Below, piece by piece: positions 7,040 to 17,614 of a stretch of 22,489 nt of DNA. The stretch covers positions 1-22,489 of the forward strand of contig NYZA01000257.1 in the NCBI GenBank assembly GCA_002686955.1, in the 5' to 3' direction. Each line of letters starts with the position of its first letter. Within the stretch, counting starts at the first letter, position 1. Both the position numbers and the translations under genes were made by a program. The notes beneath the pieces were generated by a model. The model did not search any database. It saw nothing but the letters and a program-made list of their open reading frames with translations, and was not told the DNA's origin. This stretch comes from Gemmatimonadota bacterium (GTDB lineage Bacteria; GCA-2686955).

Positions 7040-7936
7040 CTACTCTTTGACGACCAGCCGTGCCACCTTGGCGAAGCGTAGCGCCTCTCCTACGCGTAGG
7101 TTCACGCGGTTGCCGTCGAGGCGAATCATCGCGGTCAGTGGCGGCTCCGGAACGCGGAACCGAAGCGGTGGCGTCATCCCTCTCAAGAAGAGCGTGTCGA
7201 CGCGCCCGCTCGAGGTGACCACCCCCCCTTCGCGAGCGATGATGAACCCGCTCGCTCGGCGCGTCTTCGGCCAAGTCAGATGCCACCCGAGCTCGTCGAG
7301 CCACAGCAGCGCACCGGTTTCGTCCCACGCGGGCGTCCTGGCGGACCACGCATCGCCCAACGAGACGGTCTGAGGGGCGGCGGCTCCGGGCAAGGAGAGA
7401 CCCAGCCACCTCTTGCCTGCACCGAGAGAGTCTTCGGCGGAAAGGGAGCCCTTCGCGACCACCTCGGGGCGACGGGTCGAGCGTGGGGCTGGAATCAAGA
7501 AGGGGAAACCGGGGGGATGGCGCTCCCCTTCGCGTCCGAGATGGACGGCCTCCCGGTCCTCTAGCCCGTTGACCGTGATGCGCAAGCTGATCGCCTCACC
7601 CGTGCCCCCGATGTCGATCCCCTGAGGAAGACCGGTTGATTTGGCGCGGAAACGAACGCGACGGGGAGCCCCCTCGATTCGCAGGCGCGTGGAATCGGCA
7701 CCGATCGGTCGGATCGACGCCAGGCGACCCGGGCCGCGCAGGATCAGATCTCCATCGAAAACCGCCCGGTCCTCCGTTGTGCTCCACCGCAGATGCCAAC
7801 CACCCGTATCGGACCACGCGCGAATGAGATGCGGGGACTTCTCCTCTTCCTCTTCACTCGAAGCGTCATCGATCGGCGCCGCCAGTGCAGTCAGCATCGA
7901 ACAGAGGGCGAGCAGGATCGGGATTCGTGGAGTCAC
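7040..7936 (-). CDS. Secreted protein with internal duplication, function unknown
   Basis: The protein is 298 residues when started at the GTG at 7934-7936. This places a signal peptide (RIPILLALCSMLTALAA) at the N-terminus, followed by a short acidic run (SSEEEEEK). The open frame continues upstream, but that part overlaps the divergent gene and lacks signal character. Residues about 38-123 and 208-284 look like two copies of one beta-rich unit. Both have a GWHLxW motif, then a Phe-rich strand, then a Leu-x-Gly turn and an Arg-Phe-Arg strand near the end. I do not recognise the domain. A good sigma-70 promoter ends 7 bp before the start codon, so the message may be leaderless. The likely location is periplasm or outer membrane. 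Confidence 0.65.
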   Translation of the reverse strand: MTPRIPILLALCSMLTALAAPIDDASSEEEEEKSPHLIRAWSDTGGWHLRWSTTEDRAVFDGDLILRGPGRLASIRPIGADSTRLRIEGAPRRVRFRAKSTGLPQGIDIGGTGEAISLRITVNGLEDREAVHLGREGERHPPGFPFLIPAPRSTRRPEVVAKGSLSAEDSLGAGKRWLGLSLPGAAAPQTVSLGDAWSARTPAWDETGALLWLDELGWHLTWPKTRRASGFIIAREGGVVTSSGRVDTLFLRGMTPPLRFRVPEPPLTAMIRLDGNRVNLRVGEALRFAKVARLVVKE

Positions 7937-8011: not shown

Positions 8012-8809
8012 ATGAGCCAATGCAGGCGGAGCATCGTGCCGGCGCTGGGCCTCTCGGTCCTGCCGGCTCTCTGTGCGGCGGCCGAGGGATTCACCGATCG
8101 GTGGGATACACCAGGAGCCGGTGGATTGGCAGGCGCGACGGCGCCCATCGCTCGAGGTGTCGAGGCCATCGAAGCGAATCCCGCCGGGATCGCGCTGGGG
8201 GGTGCGCTGGAGGGATCGATCGTGTGGTTCCAGAGCGGATACGATGGGCAAGAAGCGGCCAGAGTCGATATCGCCGTACGCGATGGAAGCATTGGGATCG
8301 GCGCGTTTGCGCGTGAAGCGACCGGCTTCGCTCCTCCCCGATTCGAGGACTGGGGAGTGGCAGCCGCTGCTCTGATCATGCGCCGACCTCATGGTGGACA
8401 CATCGCCCTTGGCGGTGCCGTGCGCACGAGGGACGAGGAATGGTTCGCCGACCTGGCTCTACAGCTCGAGCCTGTGCCGATGGTAGGTATCGGGGCGGTC
8501 TTGACGACATCGGCCGAGGATGCCTGGGCTCTCCCGACGCTCACCGCCGGCCTGGCGCATCGCTGGGCGGCCGGGTTGGAGCTCATCGCCGAGCGGGAAT
8601 TCCGCCGGGCTGCCCCGGACGAGGCGCGTTTCGGCGCCCAAGTCGAGCTCGGCGAGCCGATCTGTTTGCGAGTCGGTTCGGGAAGCCACCGCGTGACATG
8701 GGGCGTCGGGGTGCGCTGGGGCGGCTGGTCGGTCGATCTCGCGGCCGTAGCGGATCGCCGGTCGGGCATGGCCTGGATGGCTGGGCTGCAAGTGGCCGCG
8801 CCACGATGA
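8012..8809 (+). CDS. PorV/FadL-like outer-membrane protein, first gene of a four-gene cluster
   Basis: The protein is 265 residues. A signal peptide covers about residues 1-24 (IVPALGLSVLPALCAAAEG). Near residues 40-62 it has GVEAIEANPAGIAL, which matches the WNPAG-type motif of PorV/PorQ family barrels such as the protein at 1140-2132. Alternating short strands rich in Gly, Ala and Trp follow. At 265 residues it is shorter than the other PorV-like protein (330). No Shine-Dalgarno is close to ATG 8012. A TACCCT sequence lies 6 bases before it, so the message may be leaderless. Its stop TGA overlaps the next gene's ATG. Its role is unknown; the context suggests a subunit or transporter for the glycan-binding-type proteins encoded downstream. 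Confidence 0.75.
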   Translation: MSQCRRSIVPALGLSVLPALCAAAEGFTDRWDTPGAGGLAGATAPIARGVEAIEANPAGIALGGALEGSIVWFQSGYDGQEAARVDIAVRDGSIGIGAFAREATGFAPPRFEDWGVAAAALIMRRPHGGHIALGGAVRTRDEEWFADLALQLEPVPMVGIGAVLTTSAEDAWALPTLTAGLAHRWAAGLELIAEREFRRAAPDEARFGAQVELGEPICLRVGSGSHRVTWGVGVRWGGWSVDLAAVADRRSGMAWMAGLQVAAPR

Positions 8810-10191
8810 GAGCACGGACTGCGGCTGGGCTGCTCTTGCTGCTCCCTTTCCATGGCAGTGCCGACGTTGCGACCGACTCGACGGTCGTGGCCTTCGAGCT
8901 TCGCAGGGATCTGAGCGAGCCCGGGGCGGAGACTGAGCGTGAACGCCTCGATCTGACCCTGGCCGAACAGGGGAACGACTGGAGGGCGTCGGTCACCGCG
9001 CGCATTCCACTTCACTCCGATGCCTTGCGTCTGGGAGTCGAATCGGGGCATCTATCGTGGGCGTTTCCGGTCGGCGGGATCGAGGGCTTGGTCTTCTACG
9101 GGGAGAACCGGTCGGCGATTCCTCAGGGGCGGCTCACCTTGATCGACCTCTCGGAGGAGTGGGCGGGTCTGCGCGGTCTGCGCTTCTTCTCTCCCGCGTC
9201 CCCGCTCGCGCGGAGCGCCTGGGCGATCCAACTGGCTTCGACACCGGGCGCCGAGAGCCGATCGTTGCTGTCCCTCTGGTTGAGGCACGGCATTGGGCGC
9301 TTCGCCCATCGTGCATCGGCCCTGAAATCGGAACCGTACTCGACAGACGACCCGATCTCCGTTCACGAAGCGGTGGTATCGACTCTCGAATGGAGCACCG
9401 GTTCCAATGGGCCGATTTGGAGGAGCGAGCTGGGACTGACCTCGGGGGGCGGCTGGGCGTATGCCTTGGAAGCCAGGGTTTTCCGGATCGACGGGGGGGC
9501 ATTCGGCGTTGTCGAGATCCTGCCGAGTCTCTCGTGGGTTGCGCCGGAGTGGAACGGACCGGCGGGGAGCCTGAGGCGGGGGCGAAAGAGGGTCGCAGTG
9601 GAGCTCCGGGCCGCACCATGGGGAATCCCCTCGATACTCTTGGCCGAACGTGCTTCGCCCTGGGGGCAGCGACCCTGGGGATCGCGGGCCGACCACCGAC
9701 TCGAACTGGAAGTGGAAGGGAGGATCGTGCCGGGGGTTGACGGCAGAGTTCGTGGAACGACGGGGCGAGACTCCGAGCGCGTAATGGCGGTGCCGGGAGG
9801 CCGAAGAGTGCGCACCTTCGATCATCCCGTCGCTCAGCATGATCTTCTGCTCGAGCTGCGGGGCGGGATGGAATCGGCGTGGGCCCGGGCACAGATCCGG
9901 CGGGGATGGATCGACGATTCCACAGTAGTGGGAACGGAGTGGGGAGCCAGGCTGACGACCAACGTGACCGCGATAGGGCGGGTCATGGCGGGAATGCGCG
10001 GCGATTCGCGTGCTCGTACCGCCCACCTTGCCATGCTCCAGGCGACTCCCCATCCACAATTACAGTTGGAGCTGCAATTCGGCATGTTTCAGCTCGGCGA
10101 CATGGGAACCCTGACCGACGATGTGTCTCTCTTCGATCCGATCGCGCCCGAGCAGCGCACCCGAGTTGTGTTGAGAGGAGCATTCGATTGA
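8806..10191 (+). CDS. Predicted outer-membrane beta-barrel protein, unknown family
   Basis: The protein is 461 residues from ATG 8806, which overlaps the previous stop by 4 bp (ATGA). The signal peptide is short and clear (TAAGLLLLLPFHGSADV). The mature part is a long series of alternating hydrophobic/polar strands, many with Trp and Arg at strand ends, separated by short Gly/Asp/Pro turns and with no obvious soluble domain. This composition is that of an outer-membrane barrel, although the C-terminus (RTRVVLRGAFD) is not a textbook aromatic-ending strand. I do not recognise the family. The tight coupling on both sides argues that it is made in a fixed ratio with its neighbours. Confidence 0.6.
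   Translation: MRARTAAGLLLLLPFHGSADVATDSTVVAFELRRDLSEPGAETERERLDLTLAEQGNDWRASVTARIPLHSDALRLGVESGHLSWAFPVGGIEGLVFYGENRSAIPQGRLTLIDLSEEWAGLRGLRFFSPASPLARSAWAIQLASTPGAESRSLLSLWLRHGIGRFAHRASALKSEPYSTDDPISVHEAVVSTLEWSTGSNGPIWRSELGLTSGGGWAYALEARVFRIDGGAFGVVEILPSLSWVAPEWNGPAGSLRRGRKRVAVELRAAPWGIPSILLAERASPWGQRPWGSRADHRLELEVEGRIVPGVDGRVRGTTGRDSERVMAVPGGRRVRTFDHPVAQHDLLLELRGGMESAWARAQIRRGWIDDSTVVGTEWGARLTTNVTAIGRVMAGMRGDSRARTAHLAMLQATPHPQLQLELQFGMFQLGDMGTLTDDVSLFDPIAPEQRTRVVLRGAFD
10174..10180 (+). promoter_or_regulatory. Shine-Dalgarno deciding a TTG start at 10188
   Basis: AGAGGAG, a near-perfect ribosome-binding site, is 7 bases before TTG 10188. No ATG or GTG is in register with it. The TTG overlaps the upstream TGA (TTGA), which makes this rare start codon convincing. 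Confidence 0.75.
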
Positions 10192-12293
10192 TCCGCATCC
10201 GGGCGCGAAAACCGCGAGCTCTATTTCCGCGGTCCCTGGCCATCGCTGGGGCGATCGGGATCTTGATACGCGGGTCTGCTCTGGCTCGAGCGCCGGCCGT
10301 CGCCGAAGCGGCCGAGCTCCTCGACGCCCCCGCTGTCCAAAGCGGTGGATTCGAGCGCGTTCATGCGGATACGGTGCGTTTCGAATTGGAAAACGCCTTG
10401 GCCAAGGGCGCGGCGGTTTCCGGATCGTGGGACGGATGGGTCGCGCATCCCCTGGCTCGTGGCGCGGACCAGCGATTGTGGAAGGCTCGGCTGGCGGTGC
10501 CTTCGGGGCGACACCTATACCGCTTCGTAGTAGATGGACTTCCGTCGATCGATCCAGCCAATCTGGCGATCGATGTAGCTGGCGACGGCGGGCTCGCCAG
10601 CGTGCTCGAGGGGAATGCTCCGGTCGCCGGGTCGAGCAGGGTCGAGGAGCCGGCGATTGTTCCCGCGGCGGCGCCGGCGCCCGCGCTCGGCCCTCTTCAT
10701 TGGGGCGTCAGATACCGCGGGCTGACCACTCAAGATGTCGTCGAGACCGATATTCGTCCGGTAGAAGGGCTCCACACGCTCGATCTGCCGGTGACGGCCA
10801 AGATGCGGGGCTACGGCAGAGCCGACCTGCTCTTCGGCGCCAAAGCGCGGGGCGATACCGAAAACGCTGATGTCCAGCTCTTGCAAGTCGGTGCCCTGGT
10901 TCGGCTGAGTCGGGCGCGAGTGCGGCTCTTTCGTAACTTCACCGCCTCTCCCTCGGGTGGAGCACCGATGCCGCTGGTGGCGACCAAAGGGCGGTTCGGG
11001 CATCCTCTGGGCCTCGAAGCACAGGGAGCCTCGGGGCGGCTGCGATTCGGCGATTTGAGAGCGACGCTACTGCAGCTCGAAGGCGAAGGGGGACTGCTAG
11101 GGCCGGCCGGCCGACTGGGTGTGGCTGCACTGTCCGGGCCGATCGGGCCGCTTCGCGTCTCTTGGTCAGGGGCGCGAGAGAGCGATCGATCGCGGCGTTT
11201 CGTTCTGCGAGATGAGCAATGGGAGGAACGTCCCGCGGGCATTGATTCCCTGATGGAAGAGCGCACGTTGGCGACCGGATGGCGTTTGGGGGCCACTGTG
11301 CCGCCCGCGGACGACGGCGGCTTCGTCGCTGAGATGGCCTGGACGAGCGGTGGCTCGGAGTGGCGACCTGAGGCGAGATGGATCGCGGAGATCGCCGAGG
11401 ACCTTCCCGACGACGGGCGGACGGAATCGATTTCCGTGAGCCGGCGGTGGATCGTGGAGATGGGATGGATCTCCCCGGATGGCCTGGGCCCGTTCAGAGG
11501 CTTACGGGACGGGAGAATCGGGTGGGAGGGTGAGCGGATCGATCCGGCCGGTGAAGCGGTGCGCCGCGCCGACCGCATCGATCTCCAACTCGCCCTGTCG
11601 CGTTCAAGCTGGGATGTAGTGCTTCGCGTCGCGCACAGACACACGAGCGGGGTCGACCGAGCCAACGATCCCCTTCTCACCGATTGGGTGTGGCGGGGGA
11701 TGGTCCCCGGCGTGGGCCGAGCCACTTGGTGGGAGCTGCCCCTGCTCGGACTAGGCGATCTGACCAACTTTTCGGTGCACGCGAGCTTCCCCGCCGACGC
11801 TGGCGAAGCGGGCGCCGAAGCCGCGCTCTGGAGGTGTCGGTTCGAGACGAAGGGGTGGTTTAGCGGGATTCGCGCCCCTCTCCTGGCCACCGCGCGTTGC
11901 ACTCTGGAGAGAGACATCGGAAAGGAGTTCTTCGCTCGCGCGGATCTTCTGGCGGTAGGTCGAGACCAACCCTCCCTGGACCTCCGGAGCCACACCCTCG
12001 CACCCTTCTTCGAAGTGGGCTATCGGCCACGGAGCGAGCTTCTCCTCACGGCGGGTCTCGGTGTCGATCCCCTTAGTGACGATCCACTGACGCGCGAACA
12101 GATCGACCGCGGTCGGGAGGATTTCCTCGTCGACCGATCCGGCTATCACTCCCTCGTCGCGCTCGATGATCGTTCCTTTTCGCGCGGTGTTCGCGATGCG
12201 GACCGCGCCCTGGCCGGCAGGATGAGACTTGGGCTGGAACTGATCTTCCGTTTTGGAGAATCCCGTAGACCGATCTTGAAAGGAGCCAAGTGA
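10188..12293 (+). CDS. CBM48/AMPK-type glycogen-binding-like domain fused to a predicted outer-membrane barrel
   Basis: The protein is 701 residues from TTG 10188. The N-terminus carries a basic signal sequence (hydrophobic SLAIAGAIGILI). Residues about 61-142 form a CBM48/AMPK-beta glycogen-binding-type E-set domain. Visible marks are VRFEL, a GSWDGW segment (79-84), PSGRHLYRFVVDG (105-117) and IDPAN, ending with ASVLEGN. The Trp that normally follows VDG in this family is replaced by Pro-Ser-Ile. An Ala/Pro linker (about 143-168) leads to about 530 residues of alternating strands with many Trp and Arg. These finish in MRLGLELIFRF plus a short basic tail, consistent with an outer-membrane barrel. 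The domain could bind an alpha-glucan or another glycan, or simply act as a plug or docking domain; sequence alone cannot decide. The stop overlaps the next GTG by 4 bp. Confidence 0.75.
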   Translation: MIRIRARKPRALFPRSLAIAGAIGILIRGSALARAPAVAEAAELLDAPAVQSGGFERVHADTVRFELENALAKGAAVSGSWDGWVAHPLARGADQRLWKARLAVPSGRHLYRFVVDGLPSIDPANLAIDVAGDGGLASVLEGNAPVAGSSRVEEPAIVPAAAPAPALGPLHWGVRYRGLTTQDVVETDIRPVEGLHTLDLPVTAKMRGYGRADLLFGAKARGDTENADVQLLQVGALVRLSRARVRLFRNFTASPSGGAPMPLVATKGRFGHPLGLEAQGASGRLRFGDLRATLLQLEGEGGLLGPAGRLGVAALSGPIGPLRVSWSGARESDRSRRFVLRDEQWEERPAGIDSLMEERTLATGWRLGATVPPADDGGFVAEMAWTSGGSEWRPEARWIAEIAEDLPDDGRTESISVSRRWIVEMGWISPDGLGPFRGLRDGRIGWEGERIDPAGEAVRRADRIDLQLALSRSSWDVVLRVAHRHTSGVDRANDPLLTDWVWRGMVPGVGRATWWELPLLGLGDLTNFSVHASFPADAGEAGAEAALWRCRFETKGWFSGIRAPLLATARCTLERDIGKEFFARADLLAVGRDQPSLDLRSHTLAPFFEVGYRPRSELLLTAGLGVDPLSDDPLTREQIDRGREDFLVDRSGYHSLVALDDRSFSRGVRDADRALAGRMRLGLELIFRFGESRRPILKGAK

Positions 12294-12706
12294 ACAGCTT
12301 CTGGTCGCTCGTCGGTGTCTCGCTCCTATTGGGGCTCGCCTCGGGCTGCGCCTACACCCCGACACCGCTCCGCGGAGCGCCGGAGCAGCACGGTGGAGCC
12401 GTGCGTTTTGCTCTGCGAATGCCCTCGGCCCACCGGGTCCAAGTTGTCGGGAGCTGGGAAGGGAACGCCTGGGGCGGGCTGGCCGAGAGCGGCGCGTGGC
12501 TCGACCCGCGCCGGGGCGCCCTGAGCGACCCCGACGGCGACGGTGTGTGGGAGCGGATTGTGTTCCTCCCCGCTGGGTACCATACGTACCGATTCGTCGT
12601 GGACGGCACGCTGTGGCTCGTGGATCCTTCGAACCCCGAGCGCACCAGGCACAACGGGGCCGAATCGTCGGTTCTCGTGGTTCAGGGGGATTTCGGCTCC
12701 CGTTGA
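12290..12706 (+). CDS. Lipoprotein with CBM48/AMPK-type glycogen-binding-like domain
   Basis: The protein is 138 residues from GTG 12290. AAAGGAG lies 4 bases upstream and the start overlaps the previous stop (GTGA). The N-terminus is a lipoprotein signal ending LGLASGC with lipidated Cys20. The rest is essentially one E-set domain: VRFALRM, VQVVGSWEGNAWGG, then a DPDGDGVWE turn, LPAGYHTYRFVVDG, LWLVDPSNPE and SSVLVVQ. Both Trp positions expected for sugar contact in CBM48 are present, one after GSW and one after VDG. It shares the exact YRFVVDG string with the barrel-fused domain encoded just upstream, so the two are probably paralogous modules. It is likely anchored in the outer membrane as a partner of that barrel. 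Confidence 0.85.
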   Translation: MNSFWSLVGVSLLLGLASGCAYTPTPLRGAPEQHGGAVRFALRMPSAHRVQVVGSWEGNAWGGLAESGAWLDPRRGALSDPDGDGVWERIVFLPAGYHTYRFVVDGTLWLVDPSNPERTRHNGAESSVLVVQGDFGSR

Positions 12707-12766: not shown

Positions 12767-13114
12767 ATGCCTTACCCGATTCCCGTGCTTTCCCTCCCCT
12801 TTGCGCTCGCCGCGACGATCGGCGCCGGCGAATCCGAGCTCGATCAAAAGGTATTCGAGGCGGAGGTGGTGTGCATCGGCTGCGAGCTGAAAAGGAGCGC
12901 CGGAGTGGACGCGCAATGCAGCGTCTACGCGAAGCACGAACACGGATTGCTCATGGAATCGGGCCAGATCTGGTCGATCCTCGATAACGAAACCGGACAT
13001 GGTCTGCGAACCGACCATGACTACTTGACTCGCCGGGTCCGGGTCAGTGCTGTTCCGCTGCCCCGCGCCCAATACATGGATATTCGATCGGTGGAGCTCC
13101 TTCCCACCCGATAG
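12767..13114 (+). CDS. Small exported protein with CxxC-x11-C motif, function unknown
   Basis: The protein is 115 residues from ATG 12767, with AGGAG 7 bases upstream. The N-terminus (IPVLSLPFALAATIGAGES) is a probable signal peptide. The mature part contains VVCIGCELK with Cys36 and Cys39, a third Cys at 51 (DAQCSVY) and a nearby KHEHG. The spacing could bind a metal or form a redox-active disulfide, but I cannot name the family. The end (VRVSAVPLPRAQYMDIRSVEL) looks like the closing strands of a small beta-barrel or OB-like fold. It lies 32 bp upstream of the protease/barrel fusion and may be co-transcribed with it. Confidence 0.7.
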   Translation: MPYPIPVLSLPFALAATIGAGESELDQKVFEAEVVCIGCELKRSAGVDAQCSVYAKHEHGLLMESGQIWSILDNETGHGLRTDHDYLTRRVRVSAVPLPRAQYMDIRSVELLPTR

Positions 13115-13146: not shown

Positions 13147-16100
13147 ATGATCAGATCAACGCTTCGCATACGCTTCTCGCTAATCATGGTCTCGATCTGC
13201 GCCGGCATCGCAACCGGACAGGGTTTCGGTAAGAACAAAGTCCAATACGAGAATTGGGACTGGTTCCTTCTCGAAAGCAAAAACTTCGACGTCTACTTCT
13301 ACAGCGGCGCCGAAGATCTTGCCCGATTCGCCGCGATCGAGTCGGAACGGGCACTCTCTCAGATCGCGCGGGAGTTTCGATACGAGATAAGCGATCGGAT
13401 TCCGCTGATCATCTACAAGTCGCACAACGATTTCCAGACAACGAATGTGACTCCAGGGCTCCTGCCTGAAGGTGTTGGAGGCTTTACCGAGTTCTTGAAG
13501 CATCGCGTCGTGGTGCCGTACGAGGGCGACTACGATCAGTTCCGTCACGTGCTGCACCACGAGCTGATCCACGCTGTCATGTTCGACATGCTCTATGGTC
13601 GCTCCCTCGCGAACTTGATCGGAGGGCAAAGCTCTCTGCGTCTGCCCCTCTGGTTCAGTGAAGGCCTGGCGGAATACGCGTCCGAAGGGTGGGACACAAA
13701 AGCCGACATGTTCATTCGAGACGCAGTCCTGAGCGGAACACTGCCCCCAATCGACTACCTCGGCGGCTACTTCGCCTACAAAGGCGGCCAGTCCCTTTTT
13801 CGATTCCTCGGCGATCGGTACGGCCGAGAGAAAATAGGGGAGCTTTTGGGCAAGGTGCGCTCGCTTCGTAAACTGGATTCGGCGCTCGAACAATCCTGCG
13901 GCATGACGATGGAGGCCTTGAATCGGGAGTGGAGCAAGGCGATGCGGCGAGAGTACTGGCCCGAAATCGCTTCGCGAGACGAGCCGGAGGAGTTCGCTCG
14001 CCGATTGACTGACCACAGAAAGCTACAGAATTACTACAATACCAGTCCTTCGCTTTCGCCGGATGGATCGAAAGTCGCGTTTCTTTCGGATCGAAACGTC
14101 TACGCCGATGTCTATCTACTCTCCGCGATCGACGGAAAGGTGATTCGCCGCTTGGTCAAAGGCCAGCGGAGCGGCAAGTTCGAAGAGCTCCATTGGCTGC
14201 GCCCGGGAATCGGATGGTCGCCGGCGAGTGACTACATCGCACTTGCGGCGAAAGCGGGTGAACGGGATCACCTTTTCGTGATCGATGTCAAAGATGGCGA
14301 TGTCGACAGGGAGCTCGATTTCGATCTCGATGGTCTCTTCAGTCCGGCTTGGTCGCCTACGGGAGATCGTATCGCATTTGTCGGACTGAAGGACGGGGCC
14401 TCTGATATCTACTATGTCGATCTCGCCGACGAGAGCATTCATGCAGTGACCTCCGATCCATTCAGTGATACCGATCCGAGTTGGTCACCGGACGGCGAAA
14501 GGCTGGTTTTCATCAGCGATCGCGGCGGCGCTCGGGGAGAAGGGTTTTCTTCAGAGGCGATGACGCGACACGACTACCGCCACGTCGACGTCTATATGAC
14601 CTCTCGCGATGGCAACGACATCACCCGAATCACGGACGATCCCTTCATAGAAGAGACACCGATAGTAGCTCCGGACGGTCGCCACGTTCTCTTCACGGCA
14701 GATCCGAACGGCTGCTTCAATGTGTTCGTTCACTCGCTCGACGACGGGCAGCGATGGCCGATCACCAATGTGCTGACGGGCGCATTCGACATATCCCTTT
14801 CCCGGGACGGGTCAAAGCTGGTTTTCGCCGCTCTGAGCGACGCCGGCTGGGATGTATTCGAGATGTCGAATCCGCTTTCCGTGGAGCCAGGGCGGATTGA
14901 GCTGGTCCCGACGGCCTTCAGGCAGCTCGAAGAAGACCGCCGAGCGTGGGTGGCAGAAGCGGAAGCGACCGACTCGACGGAAACGCTTGCGCCGCTAGAT
15001 GTGGGCGCGCCCGATTTCGACCAGTTCATCTTCTCGAAGGAGACGGTGATCAGGGTCGGCGAGCTTGCCGAGGCCGAGACCCCCAACCCAGAGTTGACCC
15101 CACCCGATTCTCTTTCGACGGACTCCGCCGAGAATCCGATCGGCGGCCCCCAAGACGAGGACGACGAAGAACTGAGCGTACGCCCCTATTCACCCAAGTT
15201 CTCTCCCGATCTGGTGTACGGAGCCGCGGCCTACAGTCAGTATTTCGGCGTAGTTGGTGCGAGCCAGATCGCTCTCTCCGACGTTCTCGGCAATCATCAA
15301 ATCTACATCTCTACGAACCTCTATTTCGATCTCGAGAACTCTGATTTCTACGGGTCCTATTTCTATCTACCCAATCGCAACGACTACGGATTCTCGATTT
15401 TTCACAATGCTTTTCTGTGGCTGAGCGATAATCCGGAGTTCGTTGAGGACAAGCTGCTCGAGGGCGGCTACGACTACGCGCCGGGTTCCATCATCTTCTT
15501 CCGGGATCGCTTCTACGGGGGCGGAATCGCCATGCGGCGACCTCTGGATCGCTTCCGAAGGCTCGAGGGTGAGCTCGGAATGGTGTTCATAGATCGGGAG
15601 TTCTTGGATCTGGACGCCAAGTCTCAGCATCGACGACTCGTGCAGATGCGAACTTCCTACGTGACCGATACGGCGCTCTGGGGCATTACCGGTCCGATGG
15701 GCGGAGCCGTCTCACGTTTTGGCGTATCCGTGAGCCCGGCCCTGAGTGACAATCAGCTCAGTTTTGCTACATTTGACGCCGATTTGCGTCGCTATTTCTT
15801 GATCGGAAAGGAGTATTCCTTTGCTCTTCGCTTCTTCGGAGGGGCTTCGATAGGTGACGATCCGCAGCAGTTCTTCCTGGGAGGCATGCAGAACTGGCTC
15901 AACCGTGATCTTGGAGACGATTTCCGAATCGAGAATCTCGACGACCTATATTTCGCTTCTTTTGCGACGCCGCTCCGCGGGGCCGACTACTACACGCAGG
16001 TCGGAAGGCGCGTCGCGCTCGCGAATATAGAGTTCCGTTTCCCTCTGCTGCGTCATCTGGCGATGGGTTTTCCGCTGCCGATCGAACTAGGAAATATCCG

Positions 16101-16332
16101 GGGCGCGGTTTTCGTGGACGTGGGTTCGGCTTGGAACAACAACTCGGATTGGCGCCTGAGCACTCGAACCGAGAGTGGAGAACGCATGCTCGATGATCTG
16201 CTCCTGGGGTATGGTATCGGGGGACGTTGGAATCTGGGCTTCTTTGTCCTCAAGTTCGACGTCGGGTGGCAAGATGACTTCGCCCATCGATCGAAGCCCC
16301 GCTGGTACTTAACCTTGGGGCCGGAGTTCTAG
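13147..16332 (+). CDS. Periplasmic gluzincin protease - TolB-like propeller - BamA-like barrel fusion
   Basis: The protein is 1061 residues. A signal peptide covers about residues 1-24 (FSLIMVSICAGIATGQG). Residues about 35-270 are a peptidase-MA-like metalloprotease: HHELIH holds the HEXXH zinc motif (His138, Glu139, His142), and LWFSEGLAEY supplies the third ligand, Glu172. Residues about 298-575 hold about six PD40/TolB-type blades, recognisable by repeated SWSPDG-like strings (LSPDGSKVAF, WSPTGDRIAF, WSPDGERLVF, APDGRHVLF, SRDGSKLVF). An acidic linker (about 600-680) leads to about 380 residues like the BamA/surface-antigen D15 barrel. It has FFLGGMQNWLNR, LRGADYY and VFVDVGSAW, and ends LTLGPEF. 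All expected catalytic residues are present. It should sit in the outer membrane with protease and propeller in the periplasm. A role in processing or assembly of envelope proteins is an inference. The next gene starts 4 bp after its stop. Confidence 0.88.
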   Translation: MIRSTLRIRFSLIMVSICAGIATGQGFGKNKVQYENWDWFLLESKNFDVYFYSGAEDLARFAAIESERALSQIAREFRYEISDRIPLIIYKSHNDFQTTNVTPGLLPEGVGGFTEFLKHRVVVPYEGDYDQFRHVLHHELIHAVMFDMLYGRSLANLIGGQSSLRLPLWFSEGLAEYASEGWDTKADMFIRDAVLSGTLPPIDYLGGYFAYKGGQSLFRFLGDRYGREKIGELLGKVRSLRKLDSALEQSCGMTMEALNREWSKAMRREYWPEIASRDEPEEFARRLTDHRKLQNYYNTSPSLSPDGSKVAFLSDRNVYADVYLLSAIDGKVIRRLVKGQRSGKFEELHWLRPGIGWSPASDYIALAAKAGERDHLFVIDVKDGDVDRELDFDLDGLFSPAWSPTGDRIAFVGLKDGASDIYYVDLADESIHAVTSDPFSDTDPSWSPDGERLVFISDRGGARGEGFSSEAMTRHDYRHVDVYMTSRDGNDITRITDDPFIEETPIVAPDGRHVLFTADPNGCFNVFVHSLDDGQRWPITNVLTGAFDISLSRDGSKLVFAALSDAGWDVFEMSNPLSVEPGRIELVPTAFRQLEEDRRAWVAEAEATDSTETLAPLDVGAPDFDQFIFSKETVIRVGELAEAETPNPELTPPDSLSTDSAENPIGGPQDEDDEELSVRPYSPKFSPDLVYGAAAYSQYFGVVGASQIALSDVLGNHQIYISTNLYFDLENSDFYGSYFYLPNRNDYGFSIFHNAFLWLSDNPEFVEDKLLEGGYDYAPGSIIFFRDRFYGGGIAMRRPLDRFRRLEGELGMVFIDREFLDLDAKSQHRRLVQMRTSYVTDTALWGITGPMGGAVSRFGVSVSPALSDNQLSFATFDADLRRYFLIGKEYSFALRFFGGASIGDDPQQFFLGGMQNWLNRDLGDDFRIENLDDLYFASFATPLRGADYYTQVGRRVALANIEFRFPLLRHLAMGFPLPIELGNIRGAVFVDVGSAWNNNSDWRLSTRTESGERMLDDLLLGYGIGGRWNLGFFVLKFDVGWQDDFAHRSKPRWYLTLGPEF

Positions 16333-16336
16333 CGTT

Positions 16337-17614
16337 ATGCGATCGTTCGATTGCGCAGCCGCGAAACTGCTGATGGCGGTTTCTCTGAGCCTCTCGTTCT
16401 CCTGCGAGGTCGCGGTGGCTGCGGCCAGGGCTGAGAGCTTGAGTTTCGAGTTTGGGGTGTACGGAACCCCCGCGGCGGGCGAGGGTCTGGGCGGAGTTGA
16501 CGTGTTCGTTGGAATCACCAACAAGCGATTGCAGTTCGTGAAGAAGCGGGGCCGCTGGATCGCGGACTATTCGATCACGATCGATCTGTTGACGGAAGAC
16601 GGAACGCGGGTCAAAGGGAAGACCGTCGAGCATCGACGTACCGCCAAGGGATATCGGTTCACGAATGACGCCACCATCCGCCAGGTTACCCACATGCGTT
16701 TCGACATGCCCGGAGGACGATTTCGCGTCGCGGCTCGGGTGCGGGACGAAGACCTTCGAACAGAGATCGCGAGGGAGAAGACCGTGGAGGTCGGTTCCGT
16801 TCTCGGTGGCGATCTAGGGCTGAGCGACATCATTCTCCTCGCCGATCGCGAAGAGGCCGCATCAGGCAGATTCGCGGATTTTCAGTCGATCTACTTCGAA
16901 ACCAAATCCGACCAAGAAGGAACACTGTATGCTGTGTTCCGAGTGGTGGGCAAAATGAATGGAGAAGCAGGTGGACGGGCACTCTTTCGACACCCTTCTG
17001 GTAACGTAGTTAGAGATGCAGAGTTCGGTCTTCCCGCGGAAGAGGGGTGGCGCTTCATCGAGCTGAGCGCCGAAGGTCTACCTACGACGGTCTACGATAT
17101 CGAAGTGAGCTTGAGCGCCGATTCGGGTATGGAGACGCGCGCGAAGCGAAAGTTGATTATTCGCTCCGCGGGCGTCTCTCCTTTGGTGAGCGATTTGGGT
17201 GAAGCAATCGACCAACTCCGATATATTGCGGAGAAGAACGAGCGAGACCGAATGAAGGAGGCGCATGACGAGGAAAAGCGGAGTCTCTTCGAAGCGTTTT
17301 GGAAGGCGCGCGATCCGTCGCCGGGGACGCCGGACAACGAGTTGATGGACGAGTATTATCGTCGCATCAACGAGGCAGACACACGTTTTCGCTGTTACAA
17401 GGCGGGCTGGAAGACCGATCGGGGCTGGGTCTTCGTGACACACGGCGAGCCGAATGAAATCGAACGCTATCCTTTCGAGCTCGAAACTCATCCCTACGAA
17501 GTCTGGCGCTATTTCAATCCGGAACGTCGTTTCGTCTTCGTGGATCGGAATGGATTTGGAGACTACGATATGGTCGAGAGCACGGGGGGCAACTTCCGAT
17601 ACGGCGTGGATTGA
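16337..17614 (+). CDS. GWxTD domain-containing exported protein
   Basis: The protein is 425 residues, starting 4 bp after the previous stop, with GGAG 10 bases upstream of ATG 16337. A signal peptide is present (LLMAVSLSLSFSCEVAVAA). Residues about 30-275 are beta-rich repeats. A charged helix (about 290-330) precedes the GWxTD domain: GWKTD at 357-361, then RGWVFVTHGEPNEIE and YEVWRYFNPERRFVFVDRNGFGDY, very typical of the family. GWxTD proteins are widespread in FCB-group and candidate phyla. Their function is not established. The near-contiguous arrangement with the protease/barrel fusion suggests that they act together at the envelope. Its TGA and the stop of the opposite-strand antiporter gene form a single palindrome, TGATCA. 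Confidence 0.92.
   Translation: MRSFDCAAAKLLMAVSLSLSFSCEVAVAAARAESLSFEFGVYGTPAAGEGLGGVDVFVGITNKRLQFVKKRGRWIADYSITIDLLTEDGTRVKGKTVEHRRTAKGYRFTNDATIRQVTHMRFDMPGGRFRVAARVRDEDLRTEIAREKTVEVGSVLGGDLGLSDIILLADREEAASGRFADFQSIYFETKSDQEGTLYAVFRVVGKMNGEAGGRALFRHPSGNVVRDAEFGLPAEEGWRFIELSAEGLPTTVYDIEVSLSADSGMETRAKRKLIIRSAGVSPLVSDLGEAIDQLRYIAEKNERDRMKEAHDEEKRSLFEAFWKARDPSPGTPDNELMDEYYRRINEADTRFRCYKAGWKTDRGWVFVTHGEPNEIERYPFELETHPYEVWRYFNPERRFVFVDRNGFGDYDMVESTGGNFRYGVD

Follow-up and report, generated by a model that had tools for sequence, protein, structure and literature searches.

A conserved four-gene outer-membrane module with CBM48-like domains, probably part of an alpha-glucan uptake system, and its diverged copy in a Gemmatimonadota bacterium

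The described systems closest to the locus reported here are the SusCD/Sus starch system of Bacteroidota, the LamB/MalEFGK system of enterobacteria, the PorV/PorQ proteins of type IX secretion and the glycogen-binding domain of AMPK-beta (PF16561, CBM48). The Sus system combines an outer-membrane barrel with starch-binding surface lipoproteins and has GH13 enzymes in its operon, an arrangement that the four-gene module described below (P1 to P4) resembles. As in the LamB/MalEFGK system, relatives of MalE, MalF and MalG adjoin the outer-membrane genes of the module in other genomes. Relatives of P1 match the PorV/PorQ family NF033709, and their genes follow that of a CTD protein; domains of P3 and P4 match PF16561. 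MalEFG and amylases are also encoded in many lineages in which SusD and LamB are missing.

The window, the whole stretch of 22,489 nucleotides that was analysed, is one contig (C257) of a Gemmatimonadota genome (G000) of 4.28 Mb in 270 contigs, which is 84.5% complete. Its features, in order, are as follows.

8012-8809, plus strand: P1, ATG start, 265 aa; short PorV/PorQ-like outer-membrane protein with an N-terminal GVEA...NPAG motif
8806-8809, plus strand: stop/start overlap ATGA of P1 and P2; also 4 bp in G026, G067, G135 and G366
8806-10191, plus strand: P2, ATG start, 461 aa; predicted beta-barrel without a Pfam or NCBIfam family
10188-10191, plus strand: stop/start overlap TTGA of P2 and P3
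10188-12293, plus strand: P3, TTG start, 701 aa; signal region, N-terminal CBM48-like domain, Pro/Ala linker and predicted C-terminal barrel
10344-10607, plus strand: CBM48/AMPK-GBD-like domain in residues 53-140 of P3; W100 retained, with R in place of K126, P of W133 and A of N150
12290-12293, plus strand: stop/start overlap GTGA of P3 and P4
12290-12706, plus strand: P4, GTG start, 138 aa; lipoprotein (LASGC lipobox) with a single CBM48-like domain
12395-12685, plus strand: CBM48/AMPK-GBD-like domain in residues 36-132 of P4; both W100 and W133 retained, with R in place of K126 and S of N150
12767-13114, plus strand: small conserved protein of 115 aa, encoded next after P4 in the apparent operon; 65% identity to its counterpart in G001
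13147-16332, plus strand: Peptidase_MA_2/PD40 (TolB-like)/Omp85 fusion, probable later gene of the operon of the module in both genera
16337-17614, plus strand: GWxTD-domain protein, its gene 4 bp downstream of that of the Omp85 fusion

Re-reading of the sequence confirmed the four genes of the earlier note with their coordinates, start codons and three 4-bp overlaps, and the two non-ATG starts are both preceded by a strong Shine-Dalgarno sequence (agaggagcattcga-TTG for P3 and gaaaggagccaa-GTG for P4); that of P2 is weak. A promoter scan returned no more sites than expected by chance. Our sample of the phylum consisted of the window genome and G001, a MAG deposited as 'Gemmatimonadetes bacterium' (JALXCG010000081.1) and belonging to a different genus, in which the same gene order is found, from a divergent gene through P1 to P4, the small gene and the genes for TolB-Omp85 and GWxTD to DnaK. 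Between the two genomes, P1 to P4 share 38-53% identity, less than the Omp85 fusion (66%) and DnaK (77%), and all three 4-bp overlaps are kept in G001 (TTGA, TTGA and ATGA, respectively) despite the differing start codons. The overlaps are therefore not a matter of chance, and their retention across genera together with the fast divergence of the proteins argues that the coupling of P1 to P4 is maintained by selection. This evidence supported a single co-translated outer-membrane module, the products of which may have a fixed stoichiometry and form a single complex.

The first gene had been read as PorV-like. In the window, P1 has no significant family match in Pfam or NCBIfam, NF033709 included, and the reading comes from relatives in the same position, which match NF033709 at 87.6 and 45.3 bits (E = 1e-24 and 9e-12; cut-off 90) and also match PF11751 (PorP_SprF). 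Unlike PorV/PorQ proteins, P1 proteins are short (about 265-300 aa), and their NF033709 score lies just under the curated cut-off. From their sequences, P2 and the C-terminal part of P3 are predicted to be barrels, with an amphipathic-strand signal that exceeds that of shuffled sequences (z = 3.5 for P2 and 2.6 for P3). A terminal aromatic residue is typical of outer-membrane proteins; 23 of the 25 P3 proteins of the family end in Phe, and most P2 proteins end in Phe or another aromatic residue. Neither P2 nor the barrel region of P3 matched a Pfam or NCBIfam family, any porin family included, with canonical relatives also used as queries. AlphaFold2 models of P3 and P2 on two-row alignments, which paired the window with the related copy L109, reached a pLDDT of 28-30 and were discarded, the alignment depth being too low for them to be informative; thus the two barrels of the earlier note are backed by strand signal and terminal aromatics and receive no support from structure prediction. 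Homology between P2 and P3 was considered and rejected (hhalign probability 9%).

A fusion of a CBM48-like domain and a barrel beside a lipoprotein with the same kind of domain had also been proposed, and this is supported by matches to PF16561 in P4 (28.2 bits, over the cut-off of 26.8) and in P3 (26.2 bits, marginally under it); a profile of P3 relatives matches the AMPK-beta structures 2f15/1z0n at 1e-15 to 1e-16. Four contact residues, W100, K126, W133 and N150, have been reported as critical in AMPK, and the plant domain AKINbeta2 has only the two tryptophans and still binds starch (PMC4032982). All four residues are retained in most other members of the module, although the Asn is also missing from part of the P3 domains in the groups G030/G312, G073/G214 and G069/G210. 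The window copy has the features of CBM48 at the level of the fold. Its lineage differs from the AMPK-beta domain in lacking K126 and N150 in both P3 and P4 and W133 in P3, so that three of the four contacts are lost in P3 (W, R, P, A) and two of the four in P4 (W, R, W, S) of the window; the corresponding residues in G001 are W, R, P, A and W, Q, W, T. In one lineage group, P4 carries two CBM48 domains and is directly followed by MalF-like genes (L036 5151-5933, L169 12013-12879, L171 6138-7034 and L173 12610-13341).

Gene order is conserved well beyond the source genome, and the cluster thus passes the main test by which the earlier note could have been refuted. A search of 386 genomes with a five-row P2 profile, which defines the P2 family here, matched 26 genomes, which fall into 17 family-level groups, with E < 1e-50 for many of them; a search for related loci with P3 alone returned no match. 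The order P1-P2-P3-P4 is found in 14 genomes, the window counted (P4 of G070 was read separately), and P2-P3-P1-P4 in two; most of the remaining genomes have P2-P3-P4 with no adjoining detectable P1, and several loci end at a contig edge. Among the 39 genomes reached through named loci carrying the TolB-Omp85 gene (FCB-type), only G195, a Candidatus Eisenbacteria genome (100% contig match), has P2 and carries the module. This patchy distribution resembles that of a nutrient system rather than of core envelope machinery. We found no description of the module in the literature within our search, which left most subscription journals outside, and it is apparently previously undescribed.

The genes around the module in other genomes point to alpha-glucans. 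Neighbours confirmed by Pfam include GH57+CBM48, GH13, SBP_bac_1 and Glucodextran_C with FlgD/CHU_C C-termini. Mal/GH genes lie near 16 of the 24 module loci (two of which come from a single genome) versus 1 of 58 control loci of similar length around the TolB-Omp85 gene, a different locus in partly different lineages (p = 2.7e-10, leave-one-out queries), and identical counts were obtained with independent queries from the mal operon of the window genome itself. The other eight module loci have no Mal/GH gene, in some cases owing to a contig end. The start of MalF overlaps the stop of P4 by 4 bp in G070, G340 and G211. At the other end of the module, in 11 of the 13 loci checked, a protein with a WDGxDxxGxxVPxGxY C-terminus (P0) ends at or just before the start of P1; P0 is large or mid-sized, is of the FlgD/CHU_C type-IX-signal kind and often has a glucodextranase_C domain. 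Matches to SprA occur in all 26 module genomes, 18 of them exceeding the curated cut-off, and in the window genome SprA (G000:C17:38438-42898) reaches 522.7 bits with its in-frame neighbours against a cut-off of 200.

The absence of SusC/SusD features claimed in the earlier note was borne out. SusD (PF07980) was found in none of the 26 module genomes, with a positive Bacteroides control, and no plug or TonB-receptor domain was found in P1 to P4 or their relatives. The module thus differs from the Sus system, having instead a CBM48 lipoprotein, a CBM48-barrel, genes of a MalEFG ABC transporter and a PorV-like protein. It differs likewise from the LamB/MalEFGK system, as LamB (PF02264) was found in none of the 26 genomes (control positive) and P2 and P3 lack porin-family matches. 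Taken together, the Mal/GH neighbours, the absence of SusD and LamB and the SprA matches support an alpha-glucan uptake operon at the level of the family, which probably provides the outer-membrane components of an uptake system that operates without SusD and LamB. Considering these results, we think it reasonably likely that P1 to P4 are a conserved module which in most carriers supplies the outer-membrane components of an operon for the use of alpha-glucan (starch, glycogen or maltodextrin), with the window copy as a diverged member.

A plausible model for the canonical module is as follows. The glucan-binding P0, encoded just upstream and exported by type IX secretion, would reach the surface with the PorV-like P1 as its escort, and the CBM48 lipoprotein P4, with a putative surface position, would capture or present glucan chains. 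The P3 barrel would then pass malto-oligosaccharides to MalE and MalFG, import being the putative direction, with its N-terminal CBM48 domain expected on the periplasmic side and P2 acting as a possible partner barrel. The window copy has lost P0 and the local Mal/GH genes, joined an apparent operon with a TolB-Omp85 protein and undergone alteration of both CBM48 sites. The new type of glycan-handling system that the earlier note had proposed is supported at the family level, where GH13, GH57 and Mal genes are neighbours, and not for the window copy, in which contact residues are lost and no glycan genes lie nearby.

The surroundings of the window copy differ from those of the family. No Mal, GH13 or GH57 gene adjoins the module in the window or at locus L033, and no CTD protein (P0) lies directly upstream of P1 in the window; its place is taken by an opposite-strand gene (7040-7936) that is unrelated to the CTD gene and is found at the same place in G001, 45% conserved. 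A second pair of cargo and PorV-like protein occurs at 2-2132 of the window, where a secreted protein, the C-terminal domain of which is of the sorting type, is followed by a clear PorV/PorQ gene (NF033709, E = 7.5e-50). Downstream of P4, the small protein, TolB-Omp85 and GWxTD genes are closely spaced and on the same strand as P1 to P4 in both genera. The small protein has the pattern VCIGCELKK...QC...HEHGLL, matches no Pfam family over the cut-off, and its Cys/His pattern suggests metal binding. The fusion protein has an HExxH motif (in LHHELIHAV) and is widespread in FCB-type phyla (59 loci), near GWxTD genes in several KSB1 loci. The TolB-Omp85 gene was also considered as a constant companion of the module, which was rejected, as 58 other anchor loci lack P1 to P4.

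This arrangement raises the strongest alternative, that the window copy has been fully repurposed and has no role with alpha-glucans any more. It would then be a complex for envelope biogenesis or surface assembly that works with the TolB-Omp85 and GWxTD proteins encoded in the same direction. The operon-like arrangement with the 13147 and 16337 genes in both genera and the loss of P0 and of the Mal/GH neighbours are in its favour. In the P2 tree, the window and G001 group with G173 (support 97/96) and sit on a long stem of 2.44 changes per column; in G173, their nearest relative, the P3 site is intact and that of P4 altered, and the search for Mal/GH genes close to the module found none. In addition, residues 98-139 of P3, despite the loss of contacts (W133 to P, N150 to A), are 76% identical between genera versus 44% for the barrel, which suggests selection for something else and speaks for changed function rather than decay. 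However, P4 retains both tryptophans, the state in which AKINbeta2 binds starch, and the lack of P1 to P4 at all 58 other TolB-Omp85 loci argues against a general partnership. Full repurposing is thus a real possibility, yet one we lean against. MalEFG and an amylase are encoded on contig C17 of the window genome, away from the module (equivalents on C239 in G001), so that the window copy may still take up glucan. Its neighbours and its contact residues speak against canonical glucan binding. P1 to P4 of the window most likely still assemble into an outer-membrane complex of four proteins, the ligand of which would be a different glucan or something else.

Other CBM48-containing proteins were observed in these genomes. 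A ParA/MinD-like ATPase with a C-terminal CBM48/AMPK-type domain (AAA_31 + AMPK1_CBM) is encoded in both genera of the family of the window (L034 3450-4532, G000:C173; L239 1213-2316, G001:C753), and a partition-type ATPase with a glycogen-binding domain is unusual. About 14 kb from this gene in the window genome lies a gene for a protein of 1519 aa with CBM48, GH13 alpha-amylase and maltogenic-amylase C-terminal domains (L035 4859-9418, G000:C173).

The module could also be primarily an accessory of type IX secretion, in which P1, the barrels and the E-set proteins serve to anchor the CTD protein encoded upstream, or to release it, and sugar binding is secondary. The PorV-family P1 adjoining a CTD protein and the SprA matches in every module genome are consistent with this, as is a weak match of a CBM48 domain to the T9SS plug protein, but that match is 16 bits against a cut-off of 100. 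Most members retain the glucan contact residues, the association with GH57, GH13 and Mal genes is strong, and the spread (26/386; 1/39 named FCB-type genomes) is unlike that of core secretion parts; we therefore regard this role as unlikely. Export or assembly of glucan (capsule or extracellular glycogen), which the CBM48 domain preceding the P3 barrel, expected in the periplasm, would recall from export pores, is very improbable, since the genes around the module serve uptake and degradation (MalEFG, amylases and amylopullulanase-like GH57) rather than synthesis.

Alpha-glucan uptake remains the preferred reading for the family. A broader proposal, to which we give slightly less than an even chance, is that the module represents a third type of machine for alpha-glucan uptake at the outer membrane, unrelated to SusCD and LamB. 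It would combine a PorV-escorted glucan-binding protein at the surface, a lipoprotein with CBM48 and a barrel that has a periplasmic CBM48 domain of its own. Many uncultured lineages would use it, and in the phylum of the window it would have been re-wired to a new ligand and joined to a TolB-Omp85 operon. The module is a concrete candidate for glucan passage in lineages without SusD and LamB, here in 17 family-level groups, and would tie the type IX/PorV world to glycan uptake. Furthermore, the window copy, in which canonical sugar contacts have been lost, is a natural case of the module in which a change of ligand can be tested.
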